From contig NZ_CSTE01000002.1 in NCBI RefSeq assembly GCF_001368915.1, forward strand, positions 348,248 to 412,247: a stretch of DNA of 64,000 nucleotides, in the 5' to 3' direction. Below the pieces are notes generated by a model. The model saw only the letters and a list, made by a program, of their open reading frames with translations. It ran no database searches and was not told the origin of the DNA. The translations under genes and the position numbers were made by a program. Positions 30,514-40,929 of the stretch are shown here, piece by piece. Every line of letters begins with the position of its first letter. Position 1 is the first letter of the stretch. This DNA comes from Haloferax massiliensis. GTDB lineage: Archaea; Halobacteriota; Halobacteria; Halobacteriales; Haloferacaceae.

Positions 30514-30636
30514 AGTGGGGGCGGCGAACTGGATTTCCCAGAGGATCGCTCACTCCAGTACTGACCAGAACGCAGGTGAGCTTAACTTCCGTGTTCGGGA
30601 TGGGTACGGGTGGAACCTCACCGCTCTGGCCGCCTT
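30514..30636 (-). rRNA. rrf: 5S ribosomal RNA
   Basis: The minus strand has the archaeal 5S sequence: TTAAGGCGGCCA at the 5' end, CCATCCCGAACACGGAAGTTAAG in the conserved middle and GCCGCCCCCACTCA at the 3' end, about 123 nt. A 61-bp copy of its 3' half occurs again at 30364-30424. No tRNA-Cys follows it, unlike some haloarchaeal operons. Confidence 0.93.
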
Positions 30637-30703
30637 AATGCCGACCAACGGAATCGAACCGCTGTCATACCAATATCGGTCGGGCCGTCGTACCAATGTA
30701 TAC

Positions 30704-30735
30704 GTGCAATCCAGTTTGCGCCTGGACCCGTTCTC
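30704..30735 (-). other. 23S rRNA processing stem, 3' side (bulge-helix-bulge)
   Basis: Pairs with 33681-33712. The outer arms CTGGATTGCAC/GTGCAATCCAG and inner arms GAGAACGGGTCCAG/CTGGACCCGTTCTC enclose GCGCAAA here and GCGTCCA opposite. That gives a 4-bp helix (GCGC with GCGT) and two 3-nt bulges, the archaeal splicing-endonuclease motif used to excise pre-23S. Confidence 0.8.
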
Positions 30736-30744
30736 GGGTCTCAG

Positions 30745-33661
<2,917 letters not shown>

Positions 33662-33680
33662 ATATAGTCACTGTGACCCG

Positions 33681-33712
33681 GAGAACGGGTCCAGTGGACG
33701 CCTGGATTGCAC
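33681..33712 (-). other. 23S rRNA processing stem, 5' side (bulge-helix-bulge)
   Basis: The upstream partner of 30704-30735, read on the minus strand as GTGCAATCCAG-GCGTCCA-CTGGACCCG. It holds the 5' half of the endonuclease motif. Confidence 0.8.
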
Positions 33713-33880
33713 GTACACACGGTTTCATCAAATCCCCTCGGTGACGACCCGAGGCGAATTTTCGACCCTTCCCAACCTCGCTTGCGCGGGATGGTGCATC
33801 TGTCGTCAGTATCCATTCTGTCGAAACGTCTTGCCACACTTAAGGGGCACGATCGTTTCGGAGTGGAGTACTGCTTACCA

Positions 33881-33952
33881 TGGACCCACAGGGATTCGAA
33901 CCCTGGGCATCCTCCTTGCAAAGGAGGCACTCTACCACTGAGCTATGGGCCC
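33881..33952 (-). tRNA. tRNA-Ala (TGC anticodon)
   Basis: On the minus strand GGGCCCATAGCTCAGTGGTAG... folds with acceptor GGGCCCA/TGGGTCC, anticodon loop TTTGCAA (anticodon TGC, Ala) and T arm CAGGG-TTCGAAT-CCCTG. It lies in the 16S-23S spacer, the usual archaeal position. CCA is not encoded. Confidence 0.95.
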
Positions 33953-33954
33953 GT

Positions 33955-33971
33955 GTTAGCCCTAGTAGTTC
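33955..33971 (-). other. 16S rRNA processing stem, 3' side
   Basis: The 17-bp sequence here is an exact inverted copy of 35638-35654 upstream of the 16S gene. The pair forms the outer helix of the pre-16S processing stem. The adjacent inner helix (CACC/GGTG and CCGTTCGG/CCGAACGG) holds a probable bulge-helix-bulge. Confidence 0.7.
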
Positions 33972-34049
33972 TAAGGTGTCCGAACGGGTGTCATTGGTGA
34001 ACTCGGAAGATCGCGTGTGAGCCACCCCGTCGGGGTGGTCTCGGTCGTT

Positions 34050-35523
<1,474 letters not shown>

Positions 35524-36113: not shown

Positions 36114-36268
36114 CCCCGTTGATTTAGTGGCTCTGTGAGAAAAATAGACACGAGGCGTGCCATAACTTCACGCGCGGTCAGTTGTGACATCAATTCGGTT
36201 GAGCGAGAAATCAATGTATTAGTTTCGCGCGCGTACGAAGCGTGGATAGAATCGACCCGTTGAAGTCG

Positions 36269-36291
36269 GTTTATAACGGGTCGCTTTATAA
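36269..36291 (+). promoter_or_regulatory. TATA-like boxes of tbp
   Basis: TTTATAAC at 36270 and CTTTATAA at 36284 lie 30-50 bp before the TBP start. A GGAGGT element sits at 36296-36301. The second box may drive a short leader. Confidence 0.5.
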
Positions 36292-36319
36292 GGCCGGAGG
36301 TACGATTCACGTGCGAGCA

Positions 36320-36880
36320 ATGAGTGGGCCGGCAGACTCCATCGAGATTCAGAACGTAGTCGCATCGACCGGGATCGGTCAGGAGCTCGACCTCGAAGCC
36401 CTCGCCGACGACCTCCCCGGTGCAGATTTCAACCCGGACAACTTCCCGGGCCTCGTCTATCGCACCCAGGACCCGAAAGCCGCTGCGCTCATCTTCCGTT
36501 CGGGGAAGATCGTGTGCACGGGTGCAAAGAGTATCGACGACGTGCACGACGCACTCGGCATTATCTTCGACAAGCTCCGCGAGCTTCAGATTCCCGTCGA
36601 CGACGAGCCAGAGATAACCGTCCAGAACATCGTCTCAAGCGCTGACCTCGGACACAACCTGAACCTGAACGCGCTGGCTATCGGTCTCGGACTCGAAGAC
36701 GTCGAGTACGAACCCGAGCAGTTCCCCGGTCTCGTCTACCGGATGGACGAGCCGAAGGTCGTCATCCTGCTTTTCGGTTCCGGAAAAATCGTCATCACCG
36801 GCGGAAAGCGGACGGACGACGCGGAAACCGCCGTCGAAGAGATCGTCGAGCGCATCGACGCGCTCGGCCTTCTCGGATAG
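36320..36880 (+). CDS. tbp: TATA-box binding protein (TBP)
   Basis: A 186-residue general transcription factor made of two direct repeats of about 90 residues: IEIQNVVASTGIGQELDLEALADDL and the matching ITVQNIVSSADLGHNLNLNALAIGL. Each has FPGLVYR and an IFRSGKIVCTG or LFGSGKIVITG strand, which form the saddle that bends TATA DNA. Haloarchaea have several TBPs, so this is one paralogue. I use the ATG at 36320, because the longer frame from 36242 has unrelated residues. It diverges from the rRNA promoter. Confidence 0.92.
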   Translation: MSGPADSIEIQNVVASTGIGQELDLEALADDLPGADFNPDNFPGLVYRTQDPKAAALIFRSGKIVCTGAKSIDDVHDALGIIFDKLRELQIPVDDEPEITVQNIVSSADLGHNLNLNALAIGLGLEDVEYEPEQFPGLVYRMDEPKVVILLFGSGKIVITGGKRTDDAETAVEEIVERIDALGLLG

Positions 36881-37917: not shown

Positions 37918-39123
37918 TCAGGTGTCCGTGTTCTCGATGAGGACGTCTCTCACCACGTCCGGATCTTCGAGCAGTTGGTGCTTGGTGTAGCTTCCTTCCG
38001 CACTTCCGCCGCTGTGTTTCGACTGCTCGATGATGTCGAGAAACGCGTGTTCTTTCAGTAGGTCTCGGACTCGCCGGAGCGACAGGCTGTCGGAGCCCTG
38101 CTGTCGACAGATGTTCTCGTAGACCTCGTAGACGCGACTCGTTCGGAAGCCGTCCTGCTTTTCGTTCGAAAGCGAGAGGATAGCGAGCGCCTGTAACACG
38201 TAACGAGAGTGCGGTGTCGACCCGCGAATCAGCTCTCGGAAGCGGTCGGTCTCGGCGCGCTGACGCGCCTGCGTGACGAAGTTCTCCTTGACCGTACTCG
38301 CTCCCATCGACTGTGCGATTTCGCCCGCGTACCGCAAGATGTCGATGGCTTTCCGCGCGTCCCCGTGTTCGCGGGCGGCGAGCGCCGCGGCACGCGGAAT
38401 CGTCGAGGGGTCCAACACGCCGTCGCGGAACGCGTCGCTGCGGGCGTCCATGATGTCGCGGAGTTGGTTCGCGTCGTACGGCGGAAAGACGAACTCGCGC
38501 TCGCAGAGGCTGGATTTCACCCGCTCGTCCATCCGGTCTTTGTACTGGATCTTGTTGCTGATACCGATGACGCCGAGCTTACAGCCGGCAATCTTCCCCG
38601 CCTCACCGGCCCGCGAGAGCTGCATGAGGATGTCGTCGTCGCTCAGTTTGTCGATCTCGTCGAGGATGATGAGGACGACGTCGTACAGCGAGTCGAGGAT
38701 GCGCCACAGCCGCTTGTAGTACGTCGACGTCGAAAGCCCCTTGTCTGGAACTTTGATCCCGGTGATCGCGGTGTCGTTGACGCTGTCGGCGATGGTCTGG
38801 ACGGCCTGCGTCTCGGTCGTGTCCTGCGCGCAATCCACGTAGGCGAACGTCGCTTTCACGCCCTCTTCTTCGGCCGTCTCGACGAGGCGCTGAGAGACGT
38901 ACTTCGCACAGAGCGACTTACCCGTCCCCGTCTTCCCGTAGATGAGGACGTTGCTCGGACTCTGTCCGAAGATGGCGGGGTTCACCGCGGTCGCGAGATC
39001 CGAGATCTCGTCGTCGCGACCGACGATGCGACCCTCACCCGGGAGGTGGTTGATCTCCAACAACTCCTTGTTGGCGAAGATGGGGTCCTCCCGGGTGAAG
39101 AGGTCGTCGCTGGCGTTAGGCAT
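37918..39123 (-). CDS. orc: Orc1/Cdc6 family replication initiator
   Basis: A 401-residue AAA+ initiator. Walker A GKTGTGKS is at residues 63-70, Walker B LIILDEID at about 151-158, sensor 1 VIGISNKI follows, and the Arg-rich lid comes after. A C-terminal winged helix (SRYVLQALAILSLSNEKQDGFRTSRVYEVYENICRQQG) completes it. Orc1/Cdc6 binds ORB elements at origins and recruits MCM. Ten ORB copies lie just upstream, and one reversed copy lies only 11 bp before its ATG, so self-repression is likely. Haloferax has many Orc paralogues; the neighbours suggest that of the oriC2 type, from memory. Confidence 0.95.
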   Translation of the reverse strand: MPNASDDLFTREDPIFANKELLEINHLPGEGRIVGRDDEISDLATAVNPAIFGQSPSNVLIYGKTGTGKSLCAKYVSQRLVETAEEEGVKATFAYVDCAQDTTETQAVQTIADSVNDTAITGIKVPDKGLSTSTYYKRLWRILDSLYDVVLIILDEIDKLSDDDILMQLSRAGEAGKIAGCKLGVIGISNKIQYKDRMDERVKSSLCEREFVFPPYDANQLRDIMDARSDAFRDGVLDPSTIPRAAALAAREHGDARKAIDILRYAGEIAQSMGASTVKENFVTQARQRAETDRFRELIRGSTPHSRYVLQALAILSLSNEKQDGFRTSRVYEVYENICRQQGSDSLSLRRVRDLLKEHAFLDIIEQSKHSGGSAEGSYTKHQLLEDPDVVRDVLIENTDT

Positions 39124-39133
39124 GTTCGCAACA

Positions 39134-40260
39134 CACCACGTTTCCGGTGAAAGGACTTACCATTCGACGCAGCACACACACACCACGTTTCCGGTGAACG
39201 ACCACAAACCCCGGGTGCCGGTCCACACGAAACGGGGGTTTCGGTTCACCGGAAACACGGTGTGGGGGTTCCTCTCAGTTCACGCGAAAACAGGGGGCTG
39301 CGCTTTGCGTCCCGGCGAGGACCGAAGATAGAACGCTCGAAACGGGCGAACAGTGGGGTAATCGTGTGTCGAAGCGACTCGCAGTCACCGCAACAGAACC
39401 GACGAGAGCCGACGAGTTCGAACCGGTTTCCGAACTCGCGAACCTCTCGAAAATGCCTGACTGAGACACTCTATTCCAGTCGAGCAGTACTCGATGTTTG
39501 AGTTCATTCTTACTTTCACGAGTGTATCAATGGACGGTAACACAAATAAACTATTTAACTGTTGTTATACGTGGTGTCCAACCCTGCCAACGTGAACCGG
39601 GTTGCCGTCCGACGCTCACTAACCGGTCCCACACGCTAACTCACCGGAAACGTGGTGTCCCGCACGGATTCTGTAACCCAAGGCGGAAGCGCCGATACGG
39701 CGTCTGAAACGATTGGTTTCACCGGAAACGTGGTGTGGCCGTTATAAGTGGTCCGATTCGGCCATAGCTGGGAGGCACGAGACAACCGCAGGTCGTCCCT
39801 CGCTTTCCGCCGCGTCTCTCGCTGCCGGTCGCTCGGTCCAGTTCATCGGAAACGTGGTGTGCGCGTGACTCCGCTCTCGGAACTCACCGACGCGCCGCGT
39901 CACTGCTCCCCGGTGTTACTGCCGGCGTTCCCTCGCGCCGCATTTCACCGGAAACGTGGTGTCTGTCAGCGCTGCTACGTTCTCCGTTGAGTCGACTCGC
40001 GGCGGCGGCTTGTGGAACGGTGCTCTCTATTTGTCCCTTCCCATCGGTCCGCGTTTCCATTCCCGATCCTTCGCGCTAGTTCACCGGAAACGTGGTGTCT
40101 CTGCCCGTCTCACACGGACTCGCGATTCACCGGAAGCGAGGTGTGGGTCGCTCGCGGCACGACTCGGTGAGGTATCGCCGGTGACCGACCGCCGACGCCG
40201 ACGTTTACTGCAGTCCCGGAGCCGAGATTCGACTCCGCTCGTTCACCGGAAACGTGGTGT
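39134..40260. other. Replication origin with ten ORB elements
   Basis: The 1.1-kb region has ten copies of an 18-19 bp motif, TTCACCGGAAACGTGGTGT or its reverse. Reversed copies: 39134-39151 and 39181-39198. Forward: 39245-39262 (variant ACACGG), 39640-39658, 39718-39736, 39842-39860 (TTCATC), 39944-39962, 40080-40098, 40126-40144 (GCGAGG) and 40242-40260. Forward and reversed groups flank an AT-rich stretch at 39530-39576. This is the haloarchaeal origin layout: Orc1/Cdc6 binding sites around a duplex-unwinding element. No convincing gene lies inside; the short frames there look non-coding. Confidence 0.9.
39530..39576. other. Candidate duplex-unwinding element
   Basis: The segment ACACAAATAAACTATTTAACTGTTGTTATA is the AT-rich part of the origin in an otherwise GC-rich region, placed between the inner ORBs. 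It is the likely site of initial melting. Confidence 0.6.
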
Positions 40261-40446
40261 GCATGCGACTCACGCGCACTCGGCTGTTCACACCCAAGCG
40301 TCCGCGGCGAGCGTCCACGGACGAAACCGCCACTCGTCCCAGCGTTTTCTCGCCCCAACGTCCTCCCGTCCCAACATCCTCTCGTGACGGACTGTTTCGT
40401 TCCCGTGGCGTCAATGCAATTACCAAGGGGGACGAATTGGTGACAT

Positions 40447-40929
40447 ATGCGTGCGCTCAGTCGCGTGTGGGTGCGCCTCGGCGAGGCCGTGTTAGATCGC
40501 GGCGGCGACGAGGAGTGGTCCCTCGAACGCTCCCGTACGACGGAGACGCGGTGGTCGCGTTCGGGAGAGCGAGTCGACTGCTTTCGGTTCGACGACGGCT
40601 ACGTGACCACTGTCCACTACGAAGACCGGGAGGTCACGTGGCAGTTGACGCCCGGACAGGTCCCGCTCGCGAGCGCCCTCGCGATGGCGAAGCTCTACCT
40701 CGAACACGAACTGACGCCACAGACCGACCCGGAGGGGCGACCGTTCGTGGGTCTCACCGAGCGAGGCCCGGTTCAGGTCTTCGAGGAGATACCCCCGGAA
40801 CCGGTCGAGTACGTCTATCTCGACGGCGTCCGGACCCTCGAAGAGTTCCCCGAGTTCCTCACCGTCGACGACGACTTCCGGGCCGTCTTCGACCGGATGG
40901 CTCCGGCGCGGTCGAGCACGTCTCGATAA
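40447..40929 (+). CDS. Origin-adjacent haloarchaeal protein
   Basis: A 160-residue protein beginning MRALSRVWVRLGEAVLDRGG. It has RVDCFRFDDGYVTTVHYEDREVTWQLTPGQVPLASALAMAKLYLEHEL and YVYLDGVRTLEEFPEFLTVDDDF. No family or motif is recognised. It is the first gene on the right side of the origin, between it and rad25, and could be conserved through position. Function unknown. Confidence 0.7.
   Translation: MRALSRVWVRLGEAVLDRGGDEEWSLERSRTTETRWSRSGERVDCFRFDDGYVTTVHYEDREVTWQLTPGQVPLASALAMAKLYLEHELTPQTDPEGRPFVGLTERGPVQVFEEIPPEPVEYVYLDGVRTLEEFPEFLTVDDDFRAVFDRMAPARSSTSR

Follow-up and report, generated by a model that had tools for sequence, protein, structure and literature searches.

Does the cluster of repeats beside an orc gene in Haloferax massiliensis mark a chromosomal replication origin and, if it does, which of its elements belong to this origin and which are shared with others? 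In the current view, an origin in haloarchaea is controlled by an initiator of its own. We analysed a 64,000-nucleotide stretch of the genome (the window), for which an earlier note had proposed an origin with ten ORB copies around an AT-rich unwinding candidate. Judged by its sequence, the locus is oriC2-orc5, a chromosomal Haloferax origin that is of the rRNA-linked ‘oriCb’ family and orthologous to an experimentally established origin. The origin itself is not new, as deletion of orc5 in H. volcanii abolishes initiation at oriC2 (PMC6063281); what is added here is its anatomy, from comparison with 80 related loci.

Orthology places the locus in the oriCb family

The gene adjoining the repeats (37918–39123, minus strand) encodes a 401-aa Orc1/Cdc6 initiator of the orc5 type with Cdc6_lid and Cdc6_C wing domains, and scored 433.7 bits against the TIGR02928 family model (cut-off, 181.3), which bears out the orc gene of the earlier note. 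Its product is 100% identical to the Hfx. denitrificans and H. sulfurifontis orthologs, 96–100% identical to its counterparts within Haloferax and 80–94% in other genera (oriCb family criterion, at least 80%). Published primers for deleting H. volcanii orc5 match both ends of the gene, one of them fitting best when shifted by one base and read as carrying engineered sites. An rRNA operon (16S, tRNA, 23S and 5S; 30516–35523, minus strand; Rfam matches) is transcribed away from the origin, giving the rRNA linkage of the oriCb type, and is the defining neighbour of the chromosomal form of that type. The oriCb arrangement with the rRNA operon is as in H. volcanii oriC2-orc5 (PMC3528665), an established origin (PMC6063281), and the H. 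mediterranei counterpart, oriC3-cdc6G, is active (PMC4595724). The proposal of a replication origin at this site is thus upheld by its orthologs, and from the same orthology we infer that the origin would be active in H. massiliensis. The universal origin oriC1 of this genome lies elsewhere, on contig C1.

Over 400 kb, GC skew had no switch at the origin (387.5 kb of contig C2) and gene orientation no clear one, which speaks against an origin; both were dropped as origin evidence for that reason. Among neighbouring genes, one for a TATA-box-binding protein (36257–36880, plus strand) lies between the rRNA operon and orc, and a 160-aa ORF without a Pfam or NCBIfam match (40447–40929, plus strand) lies between the origin and an XPB-type helicase gene. 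The 20 bp preceding this ORF (40404–40423) are 98% conserved in Haloferax.

ORBs form two groups of opposite orientation

Searching for the ORB 18-mer TCACCGGAAACGTGGTGT with up to three mismatches returned exactly 10 matches in the window, all within 39133–40260, two reversed near orc and eight forward, as had been claimed; the chance expectation from dinucleotide shuffles was 0.06. A scan of the whole 4.0-Mb genome, which the earlier note had suggested, found copies with at most one mismatch at this locus only, the few other ORB-like copies being solitary and having 2–3 mismatches. Simple counting of 7- to 9-mers brought up only ORB words and their flanks.

The reversed pair consists of ORB1 (39133–39150, minus strand; 99% conserved in Haloferax), an exact match that adjoins the orc start codon, and ORB2 (39180–39197, minus strand; 93%), the opposed ORB of the core. 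The forward copies, all on the plus strand, are ORB3 (39246–39263; 97%), ORB4 (39641–39658; 88%), ORB5 (39719–39736; 97%), ORB6 (39843–39860; 92%), ORB7 (39945–39962; 97%), ORB8 (40081–40098; 84%), ORB9 (40127–40144; 100%, identical in all Haloferax) and ORB10 (40243–40260; 98%). Start-to-start spacings in the right group are 78, 124, 102, 136, 46 and 116 bp, as irregular as described earlier apart from the first, which had been given as 77. A CRISPR array was rejected, here as before, given spacings of 46–136 bp and both orientations.

Across 10 Haloferax loci the ORBs are conservation footprints, 84–100% identical to the window versus 50% outside named features. Three of them carry the variant words that had been pointed out: ACACGG in ORB3, TTCATC in ORB6 and GCGAGG in ORB9. 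The accompanying suggestion of weaker sites, possible in itself, is unsupported because these ORBs are conserved as variants: GCGAGG is identical in 11 of 11 Haloferax sequences, ACACGG is common to 8 of 11 (the remaining three have a different variant) and TTCATC is common to several. By this comparison, the variant ORBs are mostly kept as variants and are no decaying relics. A long G-run follows ORB3 only, the other ORBs ending in GTGGTGTG or GTGGTGTC (halophile G-string criterion).

The left side was the steadier one across the 80 related loci, with ORB1, then reversed ORB2, then forward ORB3. In nearly all of them ORB1 precedes the orc start codon by 4–17 bp, and in Haloferax the three ORBs stand at 9, 56 and 122 bp from the orc start. 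The right array is mostly forward and variable in number and spacing, with five to seven copies in Haloferax and often one in Halorubrum. Two stretches right of ORB5 (39744–39763, 79%) and ORB7 (39964–39983, 89%) are also conserved in Haloferax and hold no ORBs. Plasmid copies of the locus are left-module fragments only, on megaplasmids of other genera; viral contigs held three single exact matches to the ORB 18-mer, a number within chance by a rough estimate.

So extended an array could mean that the repeats serve mainly for initiator titration and autoregulation, with the true start elsewhere or the origin dormant in this H. massiliensis strain. Seven forward ORBs reach 600 bp past the AT-rich segment, the right-side copy number varies from one to seven between relatives, H. 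hispanica offers a documented case of titration by an ORB-rich region (PMC3936714) and H. mediterranei has dormant origins (PMC4595724). We nevertheless regard this as very improbable, because the orthologs are active in H. volcanii (PMC6063281) and H. mediterranei (PMC4595724) and because the core elements (ORB2, ORB3 and the box and AT-rich motif described below) are conserved as strongly as the array.

A conserved motif lies in the AT-rich segment

Taking the locus as an origin, the AT-rich unwinding candidate that had been placed between the inner ORBs gained support: the best 50 bp, starting at 39520, are 70% A+T versus 40% for the intergenic region, and a conserved ACTYAATGGACTWT-like motif lies exactly there, where ORB orientation switches. 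By A+T content and conservation, the putative unwinding element spans 39524–39580 (no strand assigned) and includes the motif and ACTATTTAAC; its block 39524–39563 is 92–95% conserved in Haloferax.

The motif, ACTTAATGGACTTTTCTCA, came from a de novo search of 35 diverse oriCb loci with ORBs masked, 29 of which scored at least 10, and its total log-likelihood was 225.6 versus 96–102 in four block-shuffled controls. Its top score in the window, 17.0, falls on GAGTGTATCAATGGACGGTAACAC (39520–39543, plus strand). With a matrix built and thresholded in this analysis (threshold, the 99th percentile per kilobase of this chromosome), the motif exceeded threshold in 39 of 46 held-out loci (same orientation in 38) versus 2 of 46 when shuffled; the held-out loci are not fully independent, because many are close relatives (Haloferax, Halorubrum) of the matrix-building loci, and more independent tests come from the scans of whole genomes and from the family of the contig-C4 origin, both described below. 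The ATG of the motif (ATGGAC) was rejected as a start codon, as it is not kept in many loci.

Four of the seven held-out loci without the motif (L093, L094, L105 and L111) are single-ORB loci: the orc5-type gene is there with an ORB at its start, and the other ORBs and the motif are gone. Motif and ORBs were lost together at these four loci, which are apparently decayed origins with the promoter ORB retained.

The motif recurs at other haloarchaeal origins

Genome-wide scans used exact forms of the motif and therefore pass over diverged copies, the Haloferax version among them. The form ACTYAATGGACTWT had 17 matches in 293 genomes of the order, all 17 just upstream of an orc gene, and the reversed pattern, a composition control, had 12 in the same genomes, a total regardless of position. 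A second form, CTYRRYGRACTWTACTC, searched in 170 genomes, had nine matches, and eight lay upstream of an orc gene. Locus L232 (CTCGGTGAACTATACTC) was the only motif-form match without a recognisable orc gene within 1.5 kb.

The origins matched fall into at least four groups, each with an ORB word of its own (CACCGGAAA, CACTGGAAA, ACACCCCTC and ACGTTTCCG), the last adjoining an Orc that is 58% identical to Orc5. At loci with readable ORBs, these point mostly in one direction left of the motif and in the opposite direction right of it, whichever side orc is on. Two other origins of the same genome carry the motif between opposed ORBs, on contig C4 (score, 15.9) and, more weakly, on contig C5 (11.7). 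The best match in a further origin of this genome, L015, was not counted, as it lies away from the ORB switch point. The contig-C5 origin also has many ORBs (CAGCGGACAACGTGGTGTT) on both sides of orc (L010, 1069–1355 and 2664–3997), like the H. hispanica titration region.

The oriC1 loci (L140–L169) have a conserved gap motif of their own, AACCATACCCGTAGTAGAGAAAA followed by ATATTATT, between inverted ORBs, with a log-likelihood of 376 versus about 122 in shuffled controls. Presence of the orc5-origin motif at oriC1 was rejected, the oriC1 gap motif being different; a few oriC1 gaps score moderately.

Judged from these scans, the motif is an origin motif and not a local quirk, its exact forms being nearly confined to origins. 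Since origins whose ORBs are quite unlike one another carry it, the motif is probably the binding site of a common factor, in a role analogous (not homologous) to that of the Sulfolobus ucm. It might instead be a promoter element of some transcript, since a TATTTA/TTTATA-like stretch follows about 12 bp after it in most loci; on this reading it would be a transcription-factor site or the promoter of an origin-linked RNA, and not an unwinding or helicase-loading element. We consider this unlikely: 25 of the 26 motif matches lie at origins, with the orc gene on either side, at the switch in ORB orientation, and no ORF of annotated size starts shortly downstream of the motif in the window.

A box resembling oriC1 ORBs lies between ORB2 and ORB3

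Beside this putative unwinding-region motif, the core holds an oriC1-type ORB-like box, GTCCACACGAAACGGGGGTTT (39221–39241, plus strand; 89% conserved in Haloferax). The G-rich run noticed earlier near 39245, which had been likened to the G-string of haloarchaeal ORBs, is present, and it is part of this separate conserved box rather than the G-string of ORB3 itself. Among the related loci the box is absent in Halorubrum; in the 47 non-Halorubrum loci it stands 20–23 bp after ORB2 in 39 at p ≤ 0.05 and in 32 at p ≤ 0.01. The contig-C4 origin of the same genome, whose Orc is 52% identical and whose ORBs (TTTCACTCTGGACGAGGGGTG) are different, also has this box, placed 22 bp from the opposed ORB; ten relatives of that origin have it too.

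Whether Orc5 or an oriC1-type Orc1 would bind the box is a closer question. A GAAAC core and a G-run are common to the box and the orc5 ORBs, and its spacing beside them is fixed, as might be expected of a divergent ORB for Orc5 itself, an interpretation to which we give somewhat less than an even chance. The matrix scores favour oriC1 ORBs, in the same direction in almost all box-bearing relatives: against a matrix built from 67 distinct ORB-like sites of oriC1 loci, the box reached 13.5 bits, more than any other site in the window, versus −6.6 against the orc5-ORB matrix. The recurrence of the box at the contig-C4 origin, beside unrelated ORBs and 22 bp from the opposed one, likewise argues for an oriC1-type site.

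Discussion

As a whole, the locus is very probably explained best as oriC2-orc5, with Orc5 on two divergent ORB groups that flank an AT-rich segment. In the mechanism that we propose, Orc5 is made next door and would bind two ORB groups of divergent orientation, one on either side of the AT-rich segment. The core would have the AT-rich motif at its centre, with ORB2, the box and ORB3 to its left and the first right-hand ORBs to its right; Orc5 at this core would load MCM, and the AT-rich segment would open. A factor common to several haloarchaeal origins may recognise the motif, playing a part like that of UBP at the Sulfolobus ucm. ORB1, over the orc promoter and start, probably represses orc5 in an autoregulatory manner. 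The extra forward ORBs (ORB5–ORB10) may modulate firing, most likely as a sink for Orc5 of the kind proposed for H. hispanica oriC2D, a role suggested by analogy only, since the H. hispanica array lies downstream of orc and the present one on the far side of the origin.

What the core shares with other origins bears on two published questions. The H. hispanica study took it that origins have cis elements in common and put forward Cdc6A as a common factor (PMC3936714), and the Sulfolobus UBP paper asked whether other archaea have analogous origin proteins (PMC12141716). It is slightly more probable than not, in our judgement, that haloarchaeal origins with different initiators and ORBs share a ACTYAATGGACTWT-like cis-element in the unwinding region, several also an oriC1-type box with constant spacing to the opposed ORB, and that a trans-acting factor common to these origins (perhaps Orc1 at the box together with an origin-specific protein at the motif) coordinates them as a counterpart of ucm/UBP. 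Such a factor would act at, and coordinate, multiple origins because element and box are shared across them. A nearly origin-exclusive motif and an oriC1-type box in a non-oriC1 origin thus offer a concrete target for the study of origin coordination in a tractable genus. We found no description of either in the main-text literature searched; the H. volcanii mapping paper or supplements may mention them.

Among known systems, H. volcanii oriC2-orc5 and H. mediterranei oriC3-cdc6G are alike in their orthologous initiator (at least 96% identical within Haloferax), adjoining rRNA operon and inverted ORBs around an AT-rich region, and have no family-level difference from the present locus. At H. 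hispanica oriC2-cdc6E, where the ORB-rich region oriC2D is proposed to titrate the initiator (PMC3936714), there are likewise many extra ORBs beyond the minimal origin, but the initiator is of a different family and the array lies downstream of the cdc6 gene. The haloarchaeal oriC1 (orc1/cdc6A) has an ORB core, TCCANNNGAAAC, that resembles the box at 39221, whereas its ORBs carry the full G-string and its gap motif is its own, unlike at oriC2-orc5.

The Sulfolobus ucm, a site in the unwinding region to which UBP binds, is found at origins that differ in initiator and is required for activity (PMC12141716). Like the haloarchaeal motif, it is a short conserved motif in the AT-rich region of origins with different initiators. 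Its sequence (ATTATACAAAC, taken from the oligonucleotides of PMC12141716) does not match the motif, shuffled ucm scoring as high in 92% of trials, and the likeness is therefore one of role only. The ucm has more than 300 sites genome-wide, whereas exact forms of the haloarchaeal motif are nearly confined to origins, and it has a binding protein in UBP, whereas the haloarchaeal motif is known here from sequence alone. In its putative role, the haloarchaeal motif would find its nearest functional analogue in ucm.
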